Source: a virus | Length of the DNA: 64,000 nt | Strand: one strand, 5' to 3' | IMG/VR virus record: IMGVR_UViG_3300023548_000002 | Span: 1 to 64,000 of that record | Shown here: one piece after another, positions 3,001-48,295 of the stretch | Layout of the letters: every line of letters begins with the position of its first letter | Numbering within the stretch: the stretch's first letter is position 1 | Position numbers and translations under genes: made by a program | The notes under the pieces: model-generated | The model's database searches: none | Seen by the model: only the letters and a program-made list of their open reading frames with translations | What the model was told of the DNA's origin: nothing

Positions 3001-4126
3001 TTCTATTTAATCGGTTATCCCATTGTTGTGCCCAGAAAGAAGCAATACTGTGTAGCTTATCCAGCATCTTCTTATGACGAAAACGTTTTATGGTAACTAC
3101 TTTTTCAGTAATAGACATTCCTCCAAAGTTAGAAGTCTTTGTTCTTTCTTGTTTAAAGAATGATGTAAAGTTCTGAGTATATAAATTGAATGTTCTTACA
3201 AACTCTGTTTTAAACTTTTCTGATGTGTTTGGGTCTCTTAGTTTATTATAAATATATCTTGCTGGTGGGTAAAAAGTAGCTAATGAATATCTACTTCCCC
3301 CAAGTTTCTTTAACATTTCTTTCAAAATATCATCACTATCTCGCTCTTGAATAGTATCTCCCAGAGTATCTTGTAGTCTCGTGATAATGTCAGATAAAGG
3401 AATAAATGGAGTAATAAACTTAGCCTGAGCACCAATTTCTTTCGGTAAACGTTTCATCCCGTCCACATCAGGAATAAGAGATAACCAAATTTTTATAGAC
3501 GCTCGTGCATTTTTAGTGGGGTTTATTTCTACTGAATCTTTAATAATATTACCAAGCATTTTAGCAAGTTGGTCTCCCTCTGCTTCTTCTATATCAAAAT
3601 ACTGAGCAAGTCTTATCGCTACTAAGTTCTTTAATTTCTCAATAGACTCTTTAGTAGATAATTGTTTTACTTCAAAAAGATACGCTGGGTCATTTTGTTC
3701 TATAGCCTCCTTCTCTTTGTCTATAAAAAATTGCGTAACTTTTGCTAAGTCTAAGTTAAAAGTAGAGGTAAGTATCTTATCTGCATTTTCTGGAGTAATC
3801 CCTAACATATAAGAAATAATAGTATCTACAAGATAGTTCCTTAAGGTTGGGGACATATTATCTAACTCTCTACTTCCTTCATATTTTCGGTTTTTTGCTT
3901 CTTCCAGGGTAAGCTTTTTTATCCCCCCATTTTTCTTTCTAAGCTCTTTAATAACTTTTTTTATATCTTCTTTCTCATATTTATTTTCTAATTCTTTTAA
4001 TGCCCACTTCCAATCTTCTTCAGATTTTACATGTAATTTGGCTAATCTCATTGCAGAGATTTTACCAAATCGACGTTCAATGTCTTTGTATTCTTTTGAA
4101 TAGAGATTTACACAAAAATTAGCCAT
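1..4126 (-). CDS. Virion RNA polymerase-like giant protein, N-terminal part (runs off left edge)
   Basis: The frame is open from an ATG at 4126 to the window edge, about 1375 codons, starting MANFCVNLYSKEYK. It is the last gene of the leftward block here, 6 nt after the preceding giant gene. The visible part ends in YRIPNQ. From my recollection of crAss-like phages, a similar RIP(T/N)Q strand lies shortly before the DxDxD metal-binding motif of the virion RNA polymerase (the enzyme characterised from Cellulophaga phage phi14:2), so the catalytic motif should lie just outside the window. Such polymerases are packaged in the particle, enter the cell with the DNA and transcribe early genes. The assignment rests on position, size and this short motif; the catalytic residues are not visible. 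It could instead be another large internal protein. Confidence 0.6.
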   Translation of the reverse strand, partial: MANFCVNLYSKEYKDIERRFGKISAMRLAKLHVKSEEDWKWALKELENKYEKEDIKKVIKELRKKNGGIKKLTLEEAKNRKYEGSRELDNMSPTLRNYLVDTIISYMLGITPENADKILTSTFNLDLAKVTQFFIDKEKEAIEQNDPAYLFEVKQLSTKESIEKLKNLVAIRLAQYFDIEEAEGDQLAKMLGNIIKDSVEINPTKNARASIKIWLSLIPDVDGMKRLPKEIGAQAKFITPFIPLSDIITRLQDTLGDTIQERDSDDILKEMLKKLGGSRYSLATFYPPARYIYNKLRDPNTSEKFKTEFVRTFNLYTQNFTSFFKQERTKTSNFGGMSITEKVVTIKRFRHKKMLDKLHSIASFWAQQWDNRLNRTIRKKENPLDVIEEYKNEVTSFLAEIERELRELKTKNHNEILEYYNLKLKEKGYHFDTMLDLQHYLAGQVLNKAGFPINEASWETTKGIIASKVLWRKKTSEDDDALLALLYEKGPLSVAKSLAMVLFDEFDKMKEALESKATAKKKYTQYKFNSLADIELFEIEGRKGAPYLLLSLYASTLSASFQESFASFDGNTYYPHSTGDFITRESLEKKAKTDRKSLPEGMSTSGLETEYILGVRDEETASSSKELDILDDLVMRLIADDYRTTEKSKVPFLPLADKSRYYMMSGFSTEIFDAGIVDGITELLLEDAKKIVKAYRNVFGIDGEGKRPIEELVEGWHYKRDEHGNIIFRDENGYPVGDFFQQSLWAEFKDSSFLYQEGEKGLPNFFEDYINFTVDNDTFEKIGDTHSKRIKETLSDIIIEDLIEAGFLEQTEEGTYKFFEGAPLREIRRVLEKRTGGYEDIPPLKQYGNTKEDLKYLINLFMRHTIAHYMQMHLFYGHVGFFKTFTNFMKRTPGASGTGEYLRIHKTKWGEVRPTYQLALMTNKFKEDSKLFADSIYENIKKVLEGHEAFDSIVEGLEETQEEYEAVNKMDAQGVISPERWKEIAMGLYGWSDELEKAFQQAKKGKATQAQIALLLQHLPLGSLKGQHYELVEHNGEQVPIYIKYSQFPLFPQLVTFVKGEDYAKLMKLSGVDELVVIDGSKGAQILVNDIDDPGKALQEGVKLRSISLRNKYWKLQQEVPYHAEDKTVVGVQVRRNVLANLEHPVQLPNGEELSPEEFADEVMTIDAHLSTRSSSLVLQEFGVEHRHLGKHGYYVMKEDKFYEKLTKLYMKDDDVNETTLRLLKNKLPLDGFGSLIKQIENKIFAAIRKAALRFKERGNAYVQVSPELFDRHSTRMEQANKTYADLTDTEKKGVVWLKDKAELDPPQLVEGEDGKMHVTYGQVLLPAAYFKSLPKYEKYRKRGNKALSKYILETVDPETLQLIAYRIPNQKLSF

Positions 4127-37132: not shown

Positions 37133-39505
37133 TTACTTTTTTTGTTTGATTTTCTTCTCCTCAATAGATATTTTCTTTTCTTCTAACTTTCTGTCTTTTT
37201 CTTTTTCTTTACTTTCGTGCTCTAATTTCATTCTTAGTTGTTTCTCTTGTGCTTGTGCTTTAATTCGCTCTTTATCTAATTCAGTATAATCATTAATACC
37301 ATCATTATCTAAATCTTGGTCTTCTGTTTTTGCTTGAATTCTTATTAGCTCACGCTCAGTAGCTTTATTTTCTTTCAAAGTAATAAGCTCTTTTTGGAAA
37401 GCTCTTTCCTCTTGAATTTTCTTTTGCTCAGCTTCTGCTTGCGCTTGTGCTGCTTTCTGTTGCTCTTCTTTTGCTTGGTCTTGTAATAACTCAAGCTTGC
37501 GTTTTCTTTCAGCAATACTATCTGTTTGTAATATGTCAATAAATGTGGCGAAGTTGAGCATGCCATTTTGAAATCCTGCATGTGCTAATTGTTCGATAGC
37601 ATTATCAATCTTCATTGTCTTAGTAGAAGAGTCAATAGTTATATCCCATTCAATAGGATTGATTTGGTCTATATTTACTTCTACTAATTGTGAGGTAAAG
37701 TCATCTAATACTACCTCAAGTTTTTTAGTTCCCTTCCATGCTAATTTAGCAGTTAATAATCCTGCTAACATTACTCGAGCTTTTAAATAATCATGCTCCA
37801 TAAAATAGTATTCAGTAATATGATTGGATTGAACTATTTGTCTTTCGGTATTTCCTACAAGCTCACTGGCACTTATCTGCCCCTCTCTTGCTCGTGTTAC
37901 TCCTAATACATTACCTATCTTTTGTTCAATAAGCCCTGCTAATTGCACGTACATATCCAAACTCTGCCCTACTTCCATATCTATTACAGGGGTATTTTGT
38001 TGTAACCCCCCTGAAATTTTACCTATAGCTGCACCCTTTTTCCCTTCTTTAAATAGGTCAGTGGGAACGGCTTTGAAAGTCTTAGCGTAAGCTATCCATT
38101 TATCTATATCCCATCCATCAGGAACTTCATGTAAAGGAACTTTAAGTATCTTACCCCAATTCGTAGCAATGAGATTTTCAATGTTATTCATTACTACATT
38201 GTAAAGATACTGATAGGGTTTTCCTTTATCCATAAAGGATAATGCTCGTTGATTATTGGTAGTATAAATTGTTCCAATTATCCCTGGATAGGCAATACTT
38301 AGATTGAGCATGCTACGATATTGAACAGGCTTAATACGTATCTTAGTGTAAATGGCTTTTTGATTTGGAAGGCATATTTTATGTCCTTCCCACCATTCAT
38401 TTACCCATAATACCTCAGCTGTTTCCCCAGGTTTTAATTTGTAAAATTCTGGACGTATCTCTTTTATTTCTTCTCCTAAGGGTGAGTATGATGTTACTTT
38501 AAGTAGTTTTCTTCGACTCTTCCAATACACTTTTACTACTCTTAAATTACCATTGTTATCAATTGGAGAGAGTGATGGATTAAATTTAGTGTTAAATGCA
38601 GCACTGTCTAAGTTATCTTCAATGATAGCTATTTCTTTGGGGTCTAACATTGGTCCTGGGTCAGAACCTCCAAAACTGGCACTATACCCTAATGACGCCT
38701 CTTCGATTAAATCAATCTCTTTCTGCGTTAAGAACTCAAAATATTCATCTTGTATCTGTCCTGGAGATTTATATCCGTCAATAACAATGATGTCAGAATC
38801 TTCAATATAGTTACTCTCTCCACTTAATACCGTATGAACATTTAATGGGTTGAGTTTGAATAATCGAGGCTCATTTGATATAATGTCCCATTGGTAGATT
38901 TCTTCAGAAGAGATTAGTGCATCTTTAAATCCTTGGTTGAACTTTATTTTGAATTGCTCTTTTTGCTCTAAATGTTTGATAATATGTGTTCCATACATTT
39001 CTCTGAAGTCCTTTCTTGTAAACTTCATATACTTATGGAACTTGTCTATCTGCTCTTTTAGTTCATGTTCTGGTAAATCTTCTTGTGCAAGTTTTAAAAT
39101 GAACTTTCTAAATTCATCAAACTCAGCTAATTTCTTCTCTTGTAATATATCTGGATTAACTATTTTCAATCGCCAATCAAAAAATCTTTTCCGCTCTTCT
39201 CCAATTAATACATCAATCTTTGGGTTAACTAAGGGATAGTTCTGTATCTTTACAGGAGAGTATTGCAGTCCCAATTTGTATGGGTCAGCAATCCTCTTCA
39301 TATCTTCCTCCTGCACTATGTCAGAGTATAAATCGTAGTTGATTTTCTTATTTACATAACTTTGACGCAGTGTATGCTCCGAATAAACAGCCATGTATTC
39401 TCCTGCATCTATGCAGTCCATTTGCCATTTTTTCGTCTTTTGCGTAAGCCCTTTCTTCTGTGCAGGAAAACTTACTGAGTTTAATGTGGATATCGAACGA
39501 ATCAT
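37133..39505 (-). CDS. Portal protein
   Basis: About 790 residues, between TerL and scaffold, as in crAss-like phages. Visible features are a helical N-terminus; a central region with PKEIAIIEDNLDSAAFN; a wing/stem region with VIDMEVGQSLDMYVQLAGLI and KIGNVLGVTRAREGQISASE; and a C-terminal 130-residue helix, very rich in Lys, Glu and Gln, that would form the barrel and enter the capsid. It forms the dodecameric DNA gateway. I chose the ATG at 39505 (MIRSIS); a TTG at 39514 adds three residues. Confidence 0.85.
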   Translation of the reverse strand: MIRSISTLNSVSFPAQKKGLTQKTKKWQMDCIDAGEYMAVYSEHTLRQSYVNKKINYDLYSDIVQEEDMKRIADPYKLGLQYSPVKIQNYPLVNPKIDVLIGEERKRFFDWRLKIVNPDILQEKKLAEFDEFRKFILKLAQEDLPEHELKEQIDKFHKYMKFTRKDFREMYGTHIIKHLEQKEQFKIKFNQGFKDALISSEEIYQWDIISNEPRLFKLNPLNVHTVLSGESNYIEDSDIIVIDGYKSPGQIQDEYFEFLTQKEIDLIEEASLGYSASFGGSDPGPMLDPKEIAIIEDNLDSAAFNTKFNPSLSPIDNNGNLRVVKVYWKSRRKLLKVTSYSPLGEEIKEIRPEFYKLKPGETAEVLWVNEWWEGHKICLPNQKAIYTKIRIKPVQYRSMLNLSIAYPGIIGTIYTTNNQRALSFMDKGKPYQYLYNVVMNNIENLIATNWGKILKVPLHEVPDGWDIDKWIAYAKTFKAVPTDLFKEGKKGAAIGKISGGLQQNTPVIDMEVGQSLDMYVQLAGLIEQKIGNVLGVTRAREGQISASELVGNTERQIVQSNHITEYYFMEHDYLKARVMLAGLLTAKLAWKGTKKLEVVLDDFTSQLVEVNIDQINPIEWDITIDSSTKTMKIDNAIEQLAHAGFQNGMLNFATFIDILQTDSIAERKRKLELLQDQAKEEQQKAAQAQAEAEQKKIQEERAFQKELITLKENKATERELIRIQAKTEDQDLDNDGINDYTELDKERIKAQAQEKQLRMKLEHESKEKEKDRKLEEKKISIEEKKIKQKK

Positions 39506-39544
39506 AAAACGCAATTATACGAATTTATTACTAATCTTTTATAT

Positions 39545-41791
39545 TTATAGTTGTGAAAAAAATGAATTTCTTGGTTTGTTATGGATGTTTTTCTTTAATA
39601 GATTGTTGAAGAACTGTGAATTTAATTCTACTTCTTTCCCCTCTTCCATTATTCGTTCACTTATCTTTTCTCTATCAGCTTTTAATATCATCAACATACC
39701 CATAGCAGATACACGGTCAGCATTGATGTCTGGTGTCCATTTAATTAACTCATTCAACAATCCAATGCTTCTTATGGTATGTAGATTTAATACTGTTTCT
39801 TCTTCATTTGTCCCTTCTACTACATAGGCTTTATCTAATAACCAATCTGCTAATAGTCTTCGTGCAAAGGAATTGATTTTCTTCCCAGAGTTGGTTCCCT
39901 TCTTTTTATTTCCATAGTAATTGGGTTTCATCATCTGCATACTCTTCAATATTTCTGGATTGTCTGCTAAGTAATGCAATGAATTTCTTCTATCCATATA
40001 GGCAAAAAACCCCTTCTTGTCATTCTCATAGTTACAAATAGCATTGTAATACATCAATAGTCTTCGACATATTTCATAGAATTCATTTGCTGTTCTTGGT
40101 CTTCCTGTGTATTCCGCTACTATTCTCTCTGTTACTGAATCCATTACAAAAATACTACCTAATGAGTTAGTGGTAGAACTGTCGTCATCAAAGGGGTCCA
40201 TTCCTGCTATGTATCTACCGAAGGGTATATCCTTAGCATCAGTATATGGTTTTTCAAATATTTCTACTGCTCCATGCTTATTTAGATTATCCTTCAATGG
40301 AAAATCCCGTATGGGTTCTTTTTCTACGGTAGAATCAAGCTCTACTCCTTTCTTAGTTACTACTAAATCTCCTACAAAATGTCCTGCTACAAAACTTTGT
40401 AAATTTGGAGAGATATCTGCTAAATAAGCTTTTAAATCTCCTACAGGGAATAAACTTCCTTCTTTACGCATTAAAGCGTCCTGTGGGTAAATAGGACGTT
40501 CTGCTTTTGCTTGGATAATATCATTGGGGTCGGCATTAGCATCTCTTAGTCTTTGTATTCTAAATAGCTCGTCTATTATCGCTTGTATTACATCAGAGTT
40601 TCCATCTTTATCCATACACCCTCGCATATTCATATACACAGGGTGAAAGAAAGCACTCTGCGTAGCAGAGGAGTTTACTCCTTTATCCCATACATTCGGA
40701 AGGGGTAAAATATTAAATGCCGAGGGTCCGTAAAAGAACTTCTGCGCTCCTTCAAAATTAGCTCCTTCCGTCCCTCCTGTTCCCCAAGTTATCATCAGTC
40801 CAAAGGCAATGCCGTCTTCTTCTACCGAAGGTCTGGCTATTTGCCAAGCAGTTACTACATTAGGGAATTTTCCGTTCTCTTCCCATAATACATAACTACC
40901 ACGTTTACCCCGTGCTTTCTGTGGGTCATTCATTAAACTTACACCTATTACTTCATTGAGGAGTCCTTTCTCTATCTTCTGAGCCTTGTCTATATACCCT
41001 AATCTCCAGTGCATATCATGCAAGGAGTCTTTGATTCTTAATCGTGGAAATGGTGTTCTCTCTGCTAAGAAGTTAATAATATCTTGGAATTTATTTAAAA
41101 TACCGTCTTTGATAAGATATTCTTTTTCATTAGCTAAGGCATACGCACGTATCTTTTCCTTAGCTTTTTCTGTATCTCCAAATAGGAAAGCTTTGGCTAA
41201 TAAACTCCCCCCTTTAAACGAATACCCTTTACCTCGTGATTTTAATATATCTGCATGACTCCCTGCTTCTCTTGCTTGGTGTATGTAATGAAAGAATAAA
41301 TAGTCCCCATCGTAGAAATCAGGGAAGTCCACTACCCGCTGACCTCTTTTCTTCCCTTTCTCTTTTTGTATTACTTTGATGATTGGTGAGTAATTGAGAT
41401 AGAAATAAAATTCCCCTGGTATCCACTCCCCGTCTTCTTCTCTTACCATCCCATTATAAATACGATGGATTTCTCTTTTCCAGAATTGCATATATTCTGA
41501 ATTGGGATTTCTTGTGGGAAAGGCTTTGGTGTAACACCCATGTTTTTGATAGTATATGGCTGCTTGTCGAAAGTAGTCAGTATTTTCTAAAATGTGCGGT
41601 TTGGTAACATCTACAATTATCCTCCCTTGTGCATCTCTTGGTAAGTCTTTGGCATAGGGTCTATCAATACTACTCATGTTTTTAATAAATTCTACCTCGT
41701 CTAATATAGTAAGAAACTCTTCCCTAACAAATTTGGGGAAAGAATTAAGTTCATCTTCTGTAATATGTGTCTGTGTCTTATTAAAGACCAT
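39545..41791 (-). CDS. terL: Terminase large subunit (DNA packaging ATPase/nuclease)
   Basis: 748 residues. The ATPase domain has a Walker A-like motif at about residue 180 (KSRGKGYSFKGG). The nuclease domain has the RNase H-like catalytic start AGMDPFDDD near 529, followed by GSIFVMDSVTERIVAEYTGRP (in pieces). The motor cuts concatemeric DNA and drives it through the portal. The ATG at 41791 (MVFNK) overlaps the upstream gene by 11 nt; a TTG at 41797 is a weaker alternative. Portal follows 40 nt downstream. The family call is firm. Confidence 0.9.
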   Translation of the reverse strand: MVFNKTQTHITEDELNSFPKFVREEFLTILDEVEFIKNMSSIDRPYAKDLPRDAQGRIIVDVTKPHILENTDYFRQAAIYYQKHGCYTKAFPTRNPNSEYMQFWKREIHRIYNGMVREEDGEWIPGEFYFYLNYSPIIKVIQKEKGKKRGQRVVDFPDFYDGDYLFFHYIHQAREAGSHADILKSRGKGYSFKGGSLLAKAFLFGDTEKAKEKIRAYALANEKEYLIKDGILNKFQDIINFLAERTPFPRLRIKDSLHDMHWRLGYIDKAQKIEKGLLNEVIGVSLMNDPQKARGKRGSYVLWEENGKFPNVVTAWQIARPSVEEDGIAFGLMITWGTGGTEGANFEGAQKFFYGPSAFNILPLPNVWDKGVNSSATQSAFFHPVYMNMRGCMDKDGNSDVIQAIIDELFRIQRLRDANADPNDIIQAKAERPIYPQDALMRKEGSLFPVGDLKAYLADISPNLQSFVAGHFVGDLVVTKKGVELDSTVEKEPIRDFPLKDNLNKHGAVEIFEKPYTDAKDIPFGRYIAGMDPFDDDSSTTNSLGSIFVMDSVTERIVAEYTGRPRTANEFYEICRRLLMYYNAICNYENDKKGFFAYMDRRNSLHYLADNPEILKSMQMMKPNYYGNKKKGTNSGKKINSFARRLLADWLLDKAYVVEGTNEEETVLNLHTIRSIGLLNELIKWTPDINADRVSAMGMLMILKADREKISERIMEEGKEVELNSQFFNNLLKKNIHNKPRNSFFSQL

Positions 41792-42329
41792 CTTCAAAAA
41801 TATTTTTTGTCTGTTTCCCTCGTGCTTCTGATGATTGTTGTAATTCTCTCTTAACTTTCTCCTCGGCTTTGTTTACAGCATCTATAGCTTCTGAAAGTGT
41901 CTTAAAAGTTTCTGTAATCTTTTTAAAGTCGTGTATGGGTCTTCCATTCTTATCCCTCTCGTCAAAATCTATATTTGCAATATATTTTGAAAGATTATCA
42001 AGAGATTTTCGAGCATTCTGTAACAATACAAGTGAAGCCGTTTGTTGTAATTCATCATATAAATCAAGTGCTTCTTGTAAATATTCTGGAATAGTGAATT
42101 TCTTTTTGCCATAAACAAGCTCTGCTACTCTTTCAAATCGTTCTTTCTCATCTATTATTTCTGCAAATTCAGAACGAAAGTCTTTGTAAAAGTAAATGAA
42201 AGAAAGATCAGCAATAGCTCTGACCTTCCCCTTAGTCCTATCCCTCTTCCATAATACTTTGAATGGAAGTAAGGATAAAGCTTCTGGCTTTATTTTTATC
42301 TCATAATCTATGTAGTTTAATAAACTCAT
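41781..42329 (-). CDS. Putative small terminase subunit or packaging factor (182 aa)
   Basis: A highly charged, helical protein with a basic N-terminal half (FKVLWKRDRTKGKVRAIADL) and a long coiled-coil C-terminal half (AIDAVNKAEEKVKRELQQSS). It lies directly upstream of terL and overlaps it by 11 nt, the usual place of the DNA-recognition subunit. No helix-turn-helix is obvious, so the call rests on position. It could also be another conserved packaging-module protein. Confidence 0.5.
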   Translation of the reverse strand: MSLLNYIDYEIKIKPEALSLLPFKVLWKRDRTKGKVRAIADLSFIYFYKDFRSEFAEIIDEKERFERVAELVYGKKKFTIPEYLQEALDLYDELQQTASLVLLQNARKSLDNLSKYIANIDFDERDKNGRPIHDFKKITETFKTLSEAIDAVNKAEEKVKRELQQSSEARGKQTKNIFEDGL

Positions 42330-42330
42330 A

Positions 42331-42615
42331 TTACCATTGGTTTAGTGGACACTTGTTGGCTTTCTTAAATGATTTTATCTTTAGCTCTAATAAACATCCA
42401 CAGCCACATACTTTCTCTCCATTAACTTCCTTACACTTTTTTGGAGAACAAATGCCATTTACATTAAAATCACATCCTGAGCATTTCTCTATTCTCATAG
42501 ATATTTCCTCCATCTCCTCGGGAGACAGTAAGTCCATACTATGTTTTAGCTGGTTCATTACTGCCTCCATAAGAAGCGGAAAGGTCTGTATATATTTCTT
42601 AGCTTTCATTGGCAT
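42331..42615 (-). CDS. Cysteine-rich putative zinc-binding protein (94 aa)
   Basis: The C-terminal half carries the motif RIEKCSGCDFNVNGICSPKKC, then KVCGCGCLLELK and CPLNQW: eight cysteines in CxxC ... C...C ... CxCxC ... C spacing, able to bind two zinc ions. I recall similar proteins in the packaging region of crAss-like and other Bacteroidota phages. It starts inside the end of the GroEL gene (17-nt overlap from the ATG at 42615, or 11 nt from the one at 42609). Role unknown. Confidence 0.68.
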   Translation of the reverse strand: MPMKAKKYIQTFPLLMEAVMNQLKHSMDLLSPEEMEEISMRIEKCSGCDFNVNGICSPKKCKEVNGEKVCGCGCLLELKIKSFKKANKCPLNQW

Positions 42616-44242
42616 AATCGGGATGTAACATGTGTGCGTTATTAAATATGTTTTCCTTGTAATGAATTACTGCACTTGTGGTTGCTAACATCAGTGCTGT
42701 TGATACTGCATTCTTACAAGCACATACTATCACCTTAGCGGGGTCTATTATCCCTCTTTCTATCCCATCTACAAAGGTATCTGTTGAAAAGTCTATGGTC
42801 AGATTGAATCGCTCTTTCTCCATATTATTTTTAAACCACTTCTCTACTTTCTTTGTAGGCAAGGTAGAGTTATCTACTAAGGTTTCAAAGGGCTTTAATA
42901 AACTCTTCCCTAAAGCTACTAAGGCTTCCCGTTTATATGCTGGTAGTTCCTCTTCTTTGGCTTTTTGTATTAAGGCACTACCTAAATAAGCTAATAGTAT
43001 TCCTCCCCCTACTACATATCCCATCTCAAAGGTTGATTGCGTAGCTAAAATAGCATCTTCTACACGGTCTTTCTTCTCCGTAATCTCTACCTCAGTATAT
43101 CCTCCAACATATAAACGTGCTACTCCTTTAAAAAGCATTGCTAAACGCTCTCTATGTCTTTCATCTATTCCTTTTTCCGCCCTCTTGATAGTTTCCTCTA
43201 TGTAACTAATACGAGCTTCTATCTTTTCTTTATCTCCCTTACCGTTGATAATAGTAGTTTCCTTTGGAGAGATTATTACTTTCTCTGCTTCCCCCAATAT
43301 CTCTTTGTTTACTTTAAGCTTTTTCCCTTTGTTATTAAAGACTACTTTACACCCTAATAATACTCCTAAGTCTTCCATCATCAATATCTTCATATTCCCT
43401 ACTCCTGGGGGACGTAATACCGCTACTCTTACTCGCTGAGCTTTAGCATTCTCAAGAACAAAGTCCAGTGCTTCCCGCTCTAATTGTGAGGCAAATAGTA
43501 TTAAATCTCTCTTATTTTCTGCCGCTAAGTAAATTAAGTCGTATAAATCACTTGTTTGCTTATACTCCAAATCTGTTACTACAATCAGTGGATTGGTAAA
43601 TTCCGCAGTATCTCCATATATTGTTCTAAATAATGGATGTATGTAAGAATGCTCTACCACGGCTCCTCTTAGTAGTTCCGAGTAAGTCTTCCCTGTTTTA
43701 CTCTCTTCAATGAATATCTTACCATTTTTCCCTACTCTATATACCAACTTACCAATTATCTCCCCTAATTCTTTATCATTATTGGTAGATAGTGTTGCAA
43801 TTCGTATTAAATCTTGCTCTTCCTGTATTGTATGAGCAGTATTCTTAATCTCATCTATTACTACTTCTAATACCTCATCAATGACTTTCTTTATACTTGC
43901 CATCTTATACTTACTGTCAAGCTCTAATAGCAAGTTAAATAACTCCCTCATAATGATTGTGGAGGTGGTAGTCCCATCCCCCGCTTCTTCTACTGTCTTA
44001 GCTGCTGCTTCTTTGGCTATTTGTGCCCCTACATTAGCTAAACGGTCTTCTAAGAATATCTCATTGGCTACCGATACTCCATCTTTGGTTATTCGTGATT
44101 TATTATATACACGCTCCAATATGACATTCCTACCATTAGGACCAAGAGTCTGACTTACTGCATCTGCTAATATGTTTACTCCACATGCTAACCCTTTAGA
44201 GGCTTCATCGTTTAATTTTACTTCTCGCTCATCTGGAAACAT
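42599..44242 (-). CDS. groEL: GroEL-type chaperonin (547 aa)
   Basis: Full-length GroEL (547 residues versus 548 in E. coli). Key ATPase residues are present: LGPNGRNVIL, ITKDGVSVANE with the Asp of position 52, AGDGTTTST with the Asp of position 87, and RVEDAILAT with the Asp of position 398. The apical and intermediate domains align along their length (for example RPPGVGNMKILMMEDLGVLLG). The C-terminus ends HMLHPDYANES and lacks the GGM tail. It folds proteins inside a double ring closed by GroES. The phage GroES-like gene lies 3 nt upstream. Presumed use is to fold capsid, portal or giant tail proteins of this phage. Confidence 0.93.
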   Translation of the reverse strand: MFPDEREVKLNDEASKGLACGVNILADAVSQTLGPNGRNVILERVYNKSRITKDGVSVANEIFLEDRLANVGAQIAKEAAAKTVEEAGDGTTTSTIIMRELFNLLLELDSKYKMASIKKVIDEVLEVVIDEIKNTAHTIQEEQDLIRIATLSTNNDKELGEIIGKLVYRVGKNGKIFIEESKTGKTYSELLRGAVVEHSYIHPLFRTIYGDTAEFTNPLIVVTDLEYKQTSDLYDLIYLAAENKRDLILFASQLEREALDFVLENAKAQRVRVAVLRPPGVGNMKILMMEDLGVLLGCKVVFNNKGKKLKVNKEILGEAEKVIISPKETTIINGKGDKEKIEARISYIEETIKRAEKGIDERHRERLAMLFKGVARLYVGGYTEVEITEKKDRVEDAILATQSTFEMGYVVGGGILLAYLGSALIQKAKEEELPAYKREALVALGKSLLKPFETLVDNSTLPTKKVEKWFKNNMEKERFNLTIDFSTDTFVDGIERGIIDPAKVIVCACKNAVSTALMLATTSAVIHYKENIFNNAHMLHPDYANES

Positions 44243-44245
44243 ATC

Positions 44246-44518
44246 TTAAGATTTTAAGTAAGCAATTACGTCGGTTTCTCGAAAGATTAAGTAAGGGTCG
44301 CCATTTACATAAATAGCAATAGGCATAGCATTTTCCATAATCAATACCTTATACCCCTCCCTAATCTCTGTTACATGATGTCCTGTTTTTAATACTTCCA
44401 AATAATTCACTTTCTTCTCTATTCCTACTAATTTGTCATCTTCCTGCTTTTCTTCTAAACTTGGTTTGATGATAAAGTGATTCCGCATTGGAATCGGTAA
44501 TTTCTCTGTTTTACTCAT
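44246..44518 (-). CDS. groES: GroES-like co-chaperonin (90 aa)
   Basis: Aligns with GroES in length and order: an N-terminal strand (PMRNHFIIKPS), a mobile loop region (EEKQEDDKLVGIEKKV), then YLEVLKTGHH, REGYKVLIMEN and the C-terminal PYLIFRETDVIAYLKS, matching the VKVGD...VLIMSESDILAIVE layout of GroES. The loop is charged and lacks the usual GGIVL hydrophobic tripeptide, though LVGI may serve. It lies just before the phage groEL, and overlaps the upstream gene by 8 nt. Similar in idea to T4 gp31, which replaces host GroES. Confidence 0.8.
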   Translation of the reverse strand: MSKTEKLPIPMRNHFIIKPSLEEKQEDDKLVGIEKKVNYLEVLKTGHHVTEIREGYKVLIMENAMPIAIYVNGDPYLIFRETDVIAYLKS

Positions 44519-44765
44519 ATCCGTATTTTTCTTTTTGTTCTAAATATTCTAAATGCTCTAAGAGCACTTTCTGTACATCCCGATAACCCCCCTTTACATA
44601 AAAATTTCCTTGGGGAAGGATAATGATACAATAATCATCTCCACCTTCCTCCAAGGAAAAGTCATGAGTGAATGGTAATGTTACTTTGTAAGGTGTAGAG
44701 TATTTATCACTGGGATGCCCAGAATAAACAGTCATCTCTACTGTGTAATCACTTAGAAATTTCAT
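44511..44765 (-). CDS. Small protein, unknown (84 aa)
   Basis: From the ATG at 44765 (MKFLSDYTVEMTVYSGH); a GTG at 44792 is possible but would overlap the upstream gene further. A beta-rich protein with PYKVTLPFTHDFSLEEGGDD and a C-terminal helix (VQKVLLEHLEYLEQKEKYGYE, in pieces). It is the gene before the chaperonin pair. No known family recognised. Confidence 0.55.
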   Translation of the reverse strand: MKFLSDYTVEMTVYSGHPSDKYSTPYKVTLPFTHDFSLEEGGDDYCIIILPQGNFYVKGGYRDVQKVLLEHLEYLEQKEKYGYE

Positions 44766-44991
44766 CTCTCTGTTTTTTAAGCTGTCTCTCACAAAGATAG
44801 TGATTTACTTTTATACTACCAAAATATTTTAATCTTAAATTCCCTGCATCTTCGTGAGATTCTACGTTAAACTCTTCCATAATTCGTTTTAATAACTTCC
44901 ACTGAGACAGATACACCTTCTGTGCTTCCTGCTCTGTAATATTGTATTCTTCCGCTATTTTCCTTAGTATTTTCTTTACTATAATATTCAT
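44749..44991 (-). CDS. Small protein, unknown (80 aa)
   Basis: A helical protein with many Lys and Glu (MNIIVKKILRKIAEEYN, ITEQEAQKVYLSQWKLLKRI) and a C-terminal KKQRDEISK. The pattern recalls small proteins upstream of packaging genes in Bacteroidota phages. It overlaps its neighbours by 4 and 17 nt. Function unknown. Confidence 0.6.
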   Translation of the reverse strand: MNIIVKKILRKIAEEYNITEQEAQKVYLSQWKLLKRIMEEFNVESHEDAGNLRLKYFGSIKVNHYLCERQLKKQRDEISK

Positions 44992-45176
44992 TCTTCTCTA
45001 CTTATTAAATACCGTAGTCTCCATTTTCCTTCTACTGTCTTCTTTATCTGGTAATCTATCTGGTAATCCATCTCATACTCATTATTCATATCTATTACCT
45101 CTTGCTCTACCTTCTCTAATACTCTCTCAGCTTCTTCTTTTGTCTTAAACTCTTTCTGTGAACTAAATAAATTCAT
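44988..45176 (-). CDS. Small helical protein, unknown (62 aa)
   Basis: From the ATG at 45176 (MNLFSSQKEFKTKEEAERV). A GTG at 45203 would overlap the upstream gene by 31 nt. It has a long Glu-rich helix followed by a short basic strand pair (IKKTVEGKWRLRYLISREE). It shares 4 nt with the gene before it. The short helix-plus-strands layout is seen in small phage regulators, but I cannot name the family. Confidence 0.5.
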   Translation of the reverse strand: MNLFSSQKEFKTKEEAERVLEKVEQEVIDMNNEYEMDYQIDYQIKKTVEGKWRLRYLISREE

Positions 45177-45472
45177 ATATTGTTTCTTATGTTTATATAC
45201 CACTCGTATTTTACAGGATTAAGTGATTCCGCCTGTATCTTATTTATCACCCCCTCTGATGACTTCGCTCTAAATAATACGTCCTCTCTGTGCATATTTG
45301 TATCTAATACATAATCATTTGCTTCCTTTGTAATAGGATACAATATCATACTCTCATTATCCTCCATTAACCCCCCATATACATACACATCCCCTACTAC
45401 ATAACTCCTAATGGTCGGAGTGAATATAATTATATCCCCCTTAATTAAATTCTCTGGTAAACTACAAGCCAT
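45173..45472 (-). CDS. Small protein, unknown (99 aa)
   Basis: A beta-rich start (LIKGDIIIFTPTIRSYVVGDVY) is followed by a mixed C-terminal half (EGVINKIQAESLNPVKYEWY). The first 50 residues could be a small SH3-like barrel. It overlaps the upstream regulator gene by 11 nt. Function not recognised. Confidence 0.55.
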   Translation of the reverse strand: MACSLPENLIKGDIIIFTPTIRSYVVGDVYVYGGLMEDNESMILYPITKEANDYVLDTNMHREDVLFRAKSSEGVINKIQAESLNPVKYEWYINIRNNI

Positions 45473-45827
45473 TTCTCTTTATGTTAAATTGTAAAACTAT
45501 TTCATCTGTATGAGGACATCGTATCTTTGGATTTAACCTGTCATTCTTTAATATCCCCCTACTCCTTAACTTACTTAATACATTATTTACAGTATTATAA
45601 CTCGTCCCCAATCTATTAGCTATCTCATACCTATTCTCCTTGGTAAATATCAATAAACTTCTCCTATCCTCCTCAATAGCTCTATACTTATCATCATAAT
45701 ACATTATCTCCGCTAATACTTCTAATTCACGTGCACTCAACCCTAAATACCCATTTAATACTCTTAGGTACTGCTTGTAAAACTCTCTCCCCGTAGGTGC
45801 TACTGTCTCTTTACGTAATATCTTCAT
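45462..45827 (-). CDS. Winged helix-turn-helix DNA-binding protein (121 aa)
   Basis: The first gene of the leftward block. A helix-turn-helix is clear in the C-terminal half: RYEIANRLGTSYNTVNNVLSKLRSRGIL, with a recognition helix around NTVNNVLSKL. The N-terminal half (LGLSARELEVLAEIMYYDD) is also helical, as in transcription-factor-like proteins near the terminase of crAss-like phages. It lies next to the structured RNA and divergence zone, so it may control late transcription. Its operator is not known. Confidence 0.72.
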   Translation of the reverse strand: MKILRKETVAPTGREFYKQYLRVLNGYLGLSARELEVLAEIMYYDDKYRAIEEDRRSLLIFTKENRYEIANRLGTSYNTVNNVLSKLRSRGILKNDRLNPKIRCPHTDEIVLQFNIKRNGL

Positions 45828-45845: not shown

Positions 45846-46215
45846 CTACCCATTTGGGTATATTTTACCCCTAAGGTGGTAGCTCCCGCTATCACATAAG
45901 AATAAAAACCGTTCCGTTCTTATTCCCTCTTTCAAGTAGTTAGTCCTGACTTCGCTGGTGATGTCCACAGTTTCTTATGTTCCCTGCGTCACGACCCTCA
46001 CGGGAGGCTTTCCCATGCCATGTAAAACCCGCCCGAAGCGTCCCAACTACTCTTATATCCCTATCGGAGAAAACTCCACCGCTATGTTCCTCTATTATTT
46101 CAAGAGCGCAGCTTACAATCCGACTTCTGGAGGGCTACCGCACCTTTTAGGCTCCTCACCCCCGTACTTTGGTATAAAGAATAGTCCACCTTAGTAACCT
46201 TATAGCTACTAAGTA
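45846..46215 (-). ncRNA. GC-rich multi-helix structured RNA upstream of the late block
   Basis: About 370 nt without a credible gene. GC reaches about 55% at 45961-46020, against AT-rich flanking genes. On the minus strand the visible helices include a 10-bp hairpin with loop GGAACG (45900-45925), a 20-nt hairpin with a GNRA loop but one A-C mismatch (45876-45895), CATAAGAA with TTCTTATG, an 8-bp GAGTAGTT/AACTACTT long-range helix with one G-U, GGAGttttCTCC, CGCTTCGGGCG, and CTTAGTA/TACTAAG at the distal end. It could be a long 5' leader of the late operon or a relic of a mobile element, such as a transposon-associated guide RNA. The minus strand is favoured by G-U pairs in two helices, but the GNRA hairpin favours the plus strand. 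No known family is recognised. Confidence 0.6.
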
Positions 46216-46424
46216 AATTCTTTATCATTATGTATCTGAACTATTCCCTTGGAAAACCAAAGGGGATGAGCAAATATACTAAATAATATTTATTATTCCA
46301 AGAAAAAATTAAATTATTTTTTAAAAATGTGCTTATAAGTAGGACAACTTGCTGTAAATGAGTAAGATAGATTGTTGAAAAAAAAATTTATTTTTTTTTT
46401 TGAAAGGCATTCTGAAAATTTTTT
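46216..46424. promoter_or_regulatory. AT-rich divergence tract, candidate promoter/origin region
   Basis: About 210 nt between the structured RNA and the GC-rich leader, very AT-rich, with a poly-A/T stretch at about 46378-46402 (A9, then TTTA, then T12). A 7-bp hairpin (CCCTTGG aaaa CCAAaGGG, one bulged A) lies near 46246-46265. No gene is seen. As the point where the two blocks diverge, it is the natural place for promoters or a replication origin, but no consensus is clear enough to mark. Confidence 0.35.
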
Positions 46425-46529
46425 GTGCACCCCGACGAGAGGGGACTACCCCCCAAGACCACCCCAGGGTCGCATGCGCAGGGGAATATACCCCACATCC
46501 AACCTCGTAACCCATTAAATCTATATATT
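46425..46529 (+). promoter_or_regulatory. GC-rich structured leader of the 68-aa gene
   Basis: Strongly GC-rich with short hairpins: GGGGactaCCCC and GGGGaatataCCCC, plus ACGAG/CTCGT closing the stretch and a GCATGC/TGCGCA core between. It sits just upstream of the ATG at 46530 and ends about 25 nt before it in AT-rich sequence. It looks like the folded 5' untranslated region of a separate small transcript. Confidence 0.45.
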
Positions 46530-46736
46530 ATGAAAAAGTTCAAGTTAAAATTAGTCGAGGTTACGCAAAAAGAAGAGGTGGTAGTCGCCAAGTTCGTAAT
46601 GTCTAACGACCTTGGTCGATGCTTCGTCTGGGGATTTTATGTGCCAGGTGCTACGCCGCCTGAACAGCTCACAGTCTCCGCTGACGCTATCATCGTCAAC
46701 AACGGCTTCCGCCATCTCGACCCGACTAAGGCATGA
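46530..46736 (+). CDS. Foreign-composition small protein (68 aa), moron-like
   Basis: Begins MKKFKLKLVEVTQKEE and includes LGRCFVWGFYVPGATPPEQL and a helical end NNGFRHLDPTKA. Codon use is unlike that of the phage: GTC, CTC, CGC, GAC and TCC are common, with overall GC near 50%, whereas neighbouring genes favour A/T-ending codons. It has its own structured leader and terminator, so it is a self-contained unit, probably acquired recently. Function unknown; a host-effect protein is possible. The ATG at 46530 follows an AT-rich stretch; an upstream in-frame ATG at 46425 lies inside the GC-rich leader and is unlikely. Confidence 0.6.
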   Translation: MKKFKLKLVEVTQKEEVVVAKFVMSNDLGRCFVWGFYVPGATPPEQLTVSADAIIVNNGFRHLDPTKA

Positions 46737-46740
46737 CGCC

Positions 46741-46762
46741 AGCCCCCTTCGGGGGCTTTTTT
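46741..46762 (+). terminator. Intrinsic terminator of the 68-aa gene
   Basis: AGCCCCC with GGGGGCT form a 7-bp stem with loop TTC, then T6. It starts 5 nt after the stop at 46736. A strong Rho-independent terminator that isolates this unit from the early genes downstream. Confidence 0.9.
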
Positions 46763-46833
46763 CTCTTGTCAATTCCTGAATAAGTTCGATTTTTTATATA
46801 TCTATCTTTTCTAACTTATTAATAAATTAATAA

Positions 46834-47114: not shown

Positions 47115-47735
47115 ATGGGAACAACAGACTTAACAGCACTCGAAAAATTCATTGAAAAGTATTCTGATAAAGTTAATTGGAGTGAAATTTCAGAACATAA
47201 AAAACTATCGGAAGAGTTCATTGAGAAATATTCTGATAAAGTTAATTGGTATTGGATTTCACTCTATCAAAAATTATCAGAAGAATTTATTGATAAACAT
47301 TCTGATAAAGTTGATTGGTATTGGATTTCAAAATATCAAGAATTATCAGAAGAATTTATTGAAAATTACTCTAATAAAATTAATTGGAAACAGATTTCAA
47401 AATATCAAAAATTATCTGAAAAATTTATCGAGAAACATTCTGACAAAATTGATTGGAGACAAATTTCAGAATATCAAAAATTGTCTGAAAATTTTATTGA
47501 AAAGTATAAAGACAAAATTGATTGGGAACATATTTCAGCTTACCAAAAATTATCTGAAGAATTTATTGAAAAACATTCAGATAAGGTTGATTGGTATTAT
47601 ATTTCAATGCACCAAGAATTATCTGAAAAATTCATTGAGAATCATTCTGATAAAGTTAATTGGAAATGGATTTCAGCTTGCCAGAAATTATCAGAAGAAT
47701 TCATTGAAAAGCATTCTGATAAATTAACTAAATAA
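47115..47735 (+). CDS. 23-residue repeat protein, copy 1 (206 aa)
   Basis: Eight tandem 23-residue repeats and a terminal half repeat. The consensus is LSEEFIEKHSDKVDWxxISxxQK, with near-constant LSE, FIE, DK(V/I), W, IS and Q and variable pairs after W and after IS. Each unit should form two short helices, giving an alpha-solenoid suited to binding a partner. The first unit is degenerate (a TDLTALEKF start) and the last ends KLTK. It is the first gene of the rightward block, 11 nt before its paralogue. Similar repeats occur in large DNA viruses and metagenomes, to my recollection; no function is known. Confidence 0.75.
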   Translation: MGTTDLTALEKFIEKYSDKVNWSEISEHKKLSEEFIEKYSDKVNWYWISLYQKLSEEFIDKHSDKVDWYWISKYQELSEEFIENYSNKINWKQISKYQKLSEKFIEKHSDKIDWRQISEYQKLSENFIEKYKDKIDWEHISAYQKLSEEFIEKHSDKVDWYYISMHQELSEKFIENHSDKVNWKWISACQKLSEEFIEKHSDKLTK

Positions 47736-47746
47736 AAATAAAAGCT

Positions 47747-48295
47747 ATGAAAACAACAGAATTAAAAAATCTCGAAGAATTTATTGAGAAACACCCCAAT
47801 ATAGTTAATTGGAGTGAAATTTCAAAATATCAAAAATTATCTGAAAAAATTATTGAAAAACATTCTGATAAAGTTGATTGGTTTTGGATTTCGATTAAGC
47901 AAAAATTATCGGAGGAATTTATTGAAAAGTATTCTGATAAAGTTAATTGGTATTATATTTCAATTCACCAAGATTTATCTGAAAATTTCATTGAAAAGTA
48001 TTCAAATAAAGTTGATTGGAGTGAAATTTCAGCTTACCAGAAACTATCGGAGGAATTTATTGAAAAGTATTCAGATAAAGTTGATTGGTATTGGATTTCA
48101 GCTTACCAGAAATTATCGGAGGAATTCATTGAGAAGCATTCTGATAAAGTTGATTGGAAATGGATTTCAGCTTGCCAGAAATTATCGGAGGAATTTATTG
48201 AGAATCATTCTGATAAGGTTGATTGGTATTGGATTTCAGCTTACCAGAAATTATCAGAGGAATTTATCGAAAAACATTCTGATAAACTCGGTTAA
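47747..48295 (+). CDS. 23-residue repeat protein, copy 2 (182 aa)
   Basis: Seven repeats of the same 23-residue unit as its neighbour, then a short end KHSDKLG. The cap reads MKTTELKNLEEFIEKHPNIV, nearly the same as that of the copy at 54794. Several adjacent units share identical codons, evidence of recent unit duplication. It follows the first copy after AAATAAAAGCT, a spacer that also precedes other copies. It should form an alpha-solenoid of about seven turns. The hairpin array begins 10 nt after its stop. Confidence 0.73.
   Translation: MKTTELKNLEEFIEKHPNIVNWSEISKYQKLSEKIIEKHSDKVDWFWISIKQKLSEEFIEKYSDKVNWYYISIHQDLSENFIEKYSNKVDWSEISAYQKLSEEFIEKYSDKVDWYWISAYQKLSEEFIEKHSDKVDWKWISACQKLSEEFIENHSDKVDWYWISAYQKLSEEFIEKHSDKLG

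Follow-up and report, generated by a model that had tools for sequence, protein, structure and literature searches.

A conserved structured RNA at the head of the late gene block in crAss-like phages

A structured RNA that is almost certainly functional is conserved among crAss-like phages, as judged by the comparison of homologous loci. In these loci, so far about a hundred metagenomic relatives of the gut virus crAssphage, it occupies the early/late junction, on the same strand as the late genes, and a host-type promoter places its predicted 5' end. The RNA family is new: Rfam contains no relative, and a search of the open literature revealed none; its working principle may still turn out to be of a familiar kind. 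Crassvirales are among the commonest human gut viruses. A large structured RNA that heads the late genes in phages with TerL proteins only ~33% identical, and that is probably retained in part by the cultured crAss001, is a concrete, testable lead on how these viruses pass to late transcription by the host polymerase.

Position, strand and extent

The window is the whole stretch of DNA that was analysed, 64,000 nucleotides forming positions 1 to 64,000 of IMG/VR record IMGVR_UViG_3300023548_000002, a 73.5-kb incomplete genome; its TerL is nearest to that of Steigviridae of Crassvirales (45%). The original prediction placed a structured non-coding stretch at 45846-46215, next to the first late gene. 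Comparison bears out both the element and its place upstream of the 121-aa winged-helix gene (45827-45462, minus), and the element proved to be larger than first stated: the interval itself is real, the 5' end lies about 55 nt further out, at 46270, and the strand is the minus strand. The features of the locus are as follows.

46271..46301, minus: putative Bacteroidetes-type promoter by consensus match (TTG 46301-46299, 20-nt spacer, TATATTTG 46278-46271)
45846..46270, minus: structured RNA, ~425 nt here against ~250 nt in most relatives; the 3' limit is approximate
45462..45827, minus: first late gene, a 121-aa winged-helix regulator with HTH_Crp_2 (Pfam PF13545, E 1.4e-7)
39545..45472, minus: remainder of the late operon down to TerL (GroES-like, GroEL, TerL, small proteins)
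46430..46736, plus: divergent early side, whose leader is rich in GC and carries the hairpins GGGGACTACCCC and GGGGAATATACCCC; it marks the divergent junction
46531-46736, plus: 68-aa early gene

The contrast with an AT-rich genome also stands, with a GC content of 0.468 in 45846-46215 against 0.327 in the window, although the label "GC-rich" is deserved only moderately. A content as high is reached by just 0.17% of 370-nt segments, all of which fall either on the RNA or on the adjacent divergent side, within its leader and gene (46381-46581). The interval was said to hold no credible gene, and none of its ORFs is conserved when the ORF list is compared with the homologues. The minus strand folds better than its dinucleotide shuffles (z -3.1; 1 of 100 shuffles as good), and for the plus strand the advantage is smaller (z -1.9), a single-sequence z-score being weak evidence and the proof of an RNA being comparative. 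For the relatives L005 and L008 the corresponding values are -0.7 and -1.1, and because these two, crAss001 and cr111_1 fold barely or not above shuffles, single-sequence folding is a poor criterion here.

Conserved fold and covariation

The 5' part of the common fold comprises the long-range helix P1, whose 5' strand lies at the RNA start, P2, and P3 with the hairpin P3a (loop AAAUA); in the 3' part P4 closes a domain with P5-P9, and the 3' end AGGGGGAUAACUAUAUCC is conserved. Eleven helices are present in the full-length alignment A6. In the window the following elements are recognised.

46057..46267, minus: candidate helix P1 of the family type (46267-46263 AUCCC with 46061-46057 GGGAU), covarying in relatives
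46063..46124, minus: helix P3 (46124-46119 GUCGGA with 46068-46063 UCCGAU), enclosing P3a; pairing probability 0.76-0.83
46061..46080, minus: invariant core GGUGGAGUUUUCUCCGAUAG, with an exact match in 7 IMG/VR stretches
45934..46052, minus: helix P4 (46052-46045 GAGUAGUU with 45941-45934 AACUACUU); probability 0.86-1.0
45856..45874, minus: conserved 3' motif UUAGGGGUAAAAUAUACCC (CCAAGGGGGAUAACUAUAUCC in relatives), from sequence comparison

P4, which closes the 3' multibranched domain and is followed by GAAAG as in the relatives, occupies a position that covaries among them (helix 6 of A6). P1 can form in the window, and a competing pairing (46270-46262 with 46163-46155) is predicted to be ~9 kcal/mol more stable; therefore, P1 is uncertain in the window phage. 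The window copy differs from the family in additional sequence on the 5' side and in a larger P3a.

Absence of covariation among homologues had been named in advance as an argument against a functional RNA, and compensatory changes were found. In the sequence-only alignment A3, 10 of 21 pairs are changed on both sides, with 98.6% of cells paired; in A6, which is likewise sequence-only and holds 23 full-length relatives, compensatory double changes occur in 24 of 55 pairs, and 97.1% of cells are paired. None of 500 shuffles reached the covariation score of either alignment, and both scores collapse when the partner is slid by 1-3 columns, a control that somewhat favours structure, the fold having been drawn with the help of the same sequences. 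In A5 and A7, model-fitted alignments that lean towards structure, 16 of 21 pairs covary in each. The strongest case is P1, which appears as GCAAC/GUUGC, GUAAU/AUUAC, CCAAU/AUUGG, GUGGU/ACCAC, GAGGC/GCCUC and others; P3 covaries as GUCGGA/UCCGAU, AUCGGA/UCCGGU and GUUGGA/UCCAAU. Wobble changes on the minus strand, such as U-G/U-A in P3, favour an RNA read from that strand.

Homologues and their distribution

Alignment with L002, a phage whose TerL is 70% identical to that of the window, reveals the same element at the corresponding site, and GTCGGRTTGTAAGCTG, CGGTGGAGTTTTCTCCGATAG and GCATGGGAAAGC are retained as blocks. The loop of the P3a hairpin in the L002 RNA contains a 98-aa ORF without a Pfam match (611-907, plus). 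The exact 20-mer GGTGGAGTTTTCTCCGATAG of the core (46080-46061) occurs in just seven stretches in all IMG/VR, each of which is this element, and two of them (L004 and L009) are near-identical copies of the L002 phage. The exact core is common to the window and L008, yet their TerL proteins are just 33% identical.

A search of 80 TerL relatives yielded many more copies. The covariance model R1, built for the 5' domain from 17 sequences that did not include the window, picked out ~44 credible copies among 73 loci; eleven had not been seen before, strongly diverged ones among them. Pattern scans added ~70 further contigs, and the broad model R2 matched all 58 of the pattern-scan loci searched (E 1e-11 to 1e-23); these loci were fetched through a motif of the P3 region, and the independent part of the test consists of the P1 and P2 pairs. 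Extension from TerL thus gave ~100 further loci, and the total of distinct RNA loci is 90. The position could be judged where at least 1.5 kb of flank was available to either side; of the 29 such loci, 28 lie in the early/late divergent junction, with a divergent block upstream and a co-directional block downstream. The window shares with the family the core GUCGGAUUGUA(G/A)..GAG-UUUU-CUCCGAU, P3, P4 and the junction position. Its R1 score (E=0.0012 in the local stretch, 0.094 in an 874-kb search) is modest alone and convinces only when combined with the exact core, with synteny and with the L002 homologue; its R2 score is not independent, the window being included in that model. With the 121-aa neighbour protein as a query no relatives were found, and the TerL query worked. 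A scan of GTDB genomes gave a single match (L011), which was rejected as a chance match inside a protein-coding gene, and when the RNA of the window and those of two relatives were compared with phage records by BLASTN, only unrelated short matches appeared.

Among annotated phages, cr111_1 (MT774387) has an R2 match at 81799-81898 (E 5e-4), between the last early-side feature (end 80243) and the first late gene (82082), and cr128_1 has one in the corresponding junction gap (E 0.013 in 691 kb, 1e-5 locally). The covariance model finds no copy in crAss001. BLAST pairs its junction (681-998) with cr128_1 at 79% over 87 nt (E 6e-11) and, less strongly, with cr111_1 at 91% over 34 nt (E 0.03); because of these alignments crAss001 probably carries a diverged homologue, linked by BLAST only. 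No copy is detectable in the cultured phage DAC15, which has a similar late operon; therefore, the function is not universal. In the Suoliviridae gut phages tested the model finds no copy, apart from one weak match in cr50_1 (E 0.3), and in cr85_1 a non-coding gap is present that the model does not recognise. The gut crAss-like phage cr50_1 (MT774375) also has an annotated tmRNA at 39374-39869.

Promoters and gene order at the junction

The large genes to the left of the RNA all lie on the minus strand and the genes to its right on the plus strand. In nearly all loci scanned, a TAnnTTTG -7 box ends a few nt before the 5' strand of P1, that is, before the RNA start. The first late gene varies among phages and the RNA remains first; in L002 a gene similar to the winged-helix regulator comes after the RNA. 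In many loci the start codon lies ~20-50 nt past the 3' motif AGGGGG without a second promoter between, and in ~40% of loci (~18-20 of 45, matches within the RNA or an ORF being set aside) a second TAnnTTTG promoter, serving the next gene, is found 50-90 nt past the RNA. In crAss001 and phi14:2, according to published reports, it is likely the host RNA polymerase that transcribes the late genes (PMC8375218, PMC10136315).

Several other characteristics of the surrounding sequence can be recorded here. Within the late operon, the window phage encodes its own GroEL and GroES-like protein (42599-44518, minus). On the divergent early side of several crAss-like phages there are short GC hairpins in which GGGG and CCCC flank a loop of 4-6 nt, mostly A/T, as in GGGGACTACCCC and GGGGAATATACCCC, located at 46430-46510 (plus) in the window, at 377-430 in L002, at 4371 in cr128_1 (L130), at 1796 in DAC15 (L128) and at 3106 in cr111_1 (L122); they possibly represent an early leader or, by analogy, an N4-like hairpin promoter for a virion RNA polymerase. 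Past the 68-aa early gene lies a terminator-like hairpin, CCAGCCCCCTTCGGGGGCTTTTTTC (46740-46765, plus), and the sub-threshold weak Rfam matches to ctRNA_p42d and BcKCsr2 at this position apparently reflect only that hairpin. Tandem-repeat proteins are encoded just after the early leader (47115-48295, plus), with units like LSEEFIEKYSDKVNWYWIS and a 69-base period. In DAC15 (MT074136) the DTR (1-1842) ends within the early/late junction (1731-1960), which brings the genome end close to the late promoter region.

Functional interpretation

The best explanation, which we put forward tentatively, is that the RNA is a structured 5' element of a late transcript made by the host RNA polymerase, most likely acting in cis. 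The host polymerase would start at the junction promoter late in infection, and because it would start there, the RNA would be made first on every transcript from that promoter; it would fold while emerging and most likely act in cis on the polymerase or on the transcript. One such role would be processive antitermination of the kind known from HK022 put and the Bacillus EAR element; another would be to protect late mRNA and aid its translation. Action in cis, as opposed to another function, is suggested with a little more reserve, and it is favoured because the RNA always stays in front of the late genes although the first of these changes; antitermination specifically is a putative role that we regard as less probable still.

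Cis action ranks only slightly ahead of a stand-alone late ncRNA released by processing or termination and acting in trans, as an RNP scaffold, a decoy for a host factor or a GOLLD/ROOL-like RNA-only assembly. This possibility deserves nearly equal attention because the next gene has its own promoter in the loci counted above, and these second promoters, like the sharp 3' boundary, fit a released RNA better than a cis leader; the 98-aa ORF tolerated in the P3a loop of L002 likewise counts against the cis reading. The complexity of the fold, its invariant unpaired motifs, the defined 5' end and the conserved 3' boundary would all suit a trans-acting molecule. On the other hand, trans-acting RNAs can move, whereas this one always keeps the same position; the minus strand shows no intrinsic terminator, the homologues share no U-tract, and no conserved neighbour is recognised as a potential protein partner. 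A long late leader and a stand-alone ncRNA had both been guessed from the sequence alone, and both fit the data.

The third guess, the relic of a mobile element (an intron core or a TnpB/IscB guide scaffold), is not supported and is the least probable reading of all. It was prompted by an isolated GC-rich structured stretch, and many group I introns are known in crAss-like phages (PMC7886860). However, the element is not inside a gene, and its vertical syntenic conservation across ~90 distinct loci is unlike that of relics. The Rfam search proposed for this question, including HEARO, guide RNAs and introns, gave no match: at the gathering score Rfam 15 has none in the window, L002 and eight divergent relatives, and nothing relevant appears down to E=10 (introns, HEARO/omegaRNA, GOLLD, ROOL, pRNA, tmRNA, Y RNA). 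The TnpB zinc ribbon (PF07282) and reverse transcriptase (PF00078) domains are absent from the 73-kb record, and ARAGORN finds no tRNA or tmRNA in the window. Hardly more probable is a DNA element (promoter, operator or cruciform) or a chance structure; the location is indeed a divergent promoter region, but pairs that are nested and long-range (90-130 nt), that show compensatory changes and that include G-U pairs on a single strand speak for RNA. A packaging-related RNA or genome-end site similar to phi29 pRNA is improbable, if less so. The DTR end of DAC15 and the numbering origin of crAss001 do lie close to the junction, and TerL is a few kb downstream, but DAC15 has a DTR and no detectable RNA, and cmscan gives no Rfam match.

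Beyond the choice between action in cis and in trans, we consider it rather probable that the RNA represents a previously undescribed class, ancestral to several crAss-like lineages, which controls the late programme or takes part in it by a mechanism unlike those of known RNA families. Examples would be an RNA of novel architecture that modifies the host polymerase as put does, or a machine acting in trans, made of RNA alone or as an RNP. No described crAss-like ncRNA was found in the open-licence PMC text searched.

Comparison with known systems

GOLLD, ROOL and OLE are far longer than the crAss-like RNA and are not known to have a fixed position in a late operon, and the crAss-like RNA has no Rfam match to them. 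They are large multi-junction RNAs without known protein partners, and GOLLD is often phage-borne (PMC12286853). As for the Y RNAs of Ro60/TROVE, crAss001 (97428-97901, minus) and cr111_1 (77241-78038, minus) encode TROVE (Ro60-like) proteins in the early block (PMC8375218). TROVE was rejected as a general RNA partner, since it is not universal: these two are the only ones among 28 crAss-like records, the window's (incomplete) genome being among the 26 that lack it. Nor does the Rfam Y RNA model match. The phi29 pRNA is a structured RNA encoded by a podovirus near the genome end; the crAss-like RNA differs in having no covariance match to it, in its fixed place at the late promoter and in its absence from DAC15.

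The HK022 put sites and the Bacillus EAR element are cis-acting antitermination RNAs of ~70-125 nt, structured and located 5' in a long operon just past the promoter, whichever gene comes first. In contrast, the crAss-like RNA is ~250 nt long, has two domains and is often followed by a second promoter; no homology was found, and membership is not claimed. The likeness lies in its 5'-proximal position in a long operon (at the 28 junction loci) and in the promoter-like motif directly upstream, and antitermination of the put/EAR kind would be the most specific version of action in cis.
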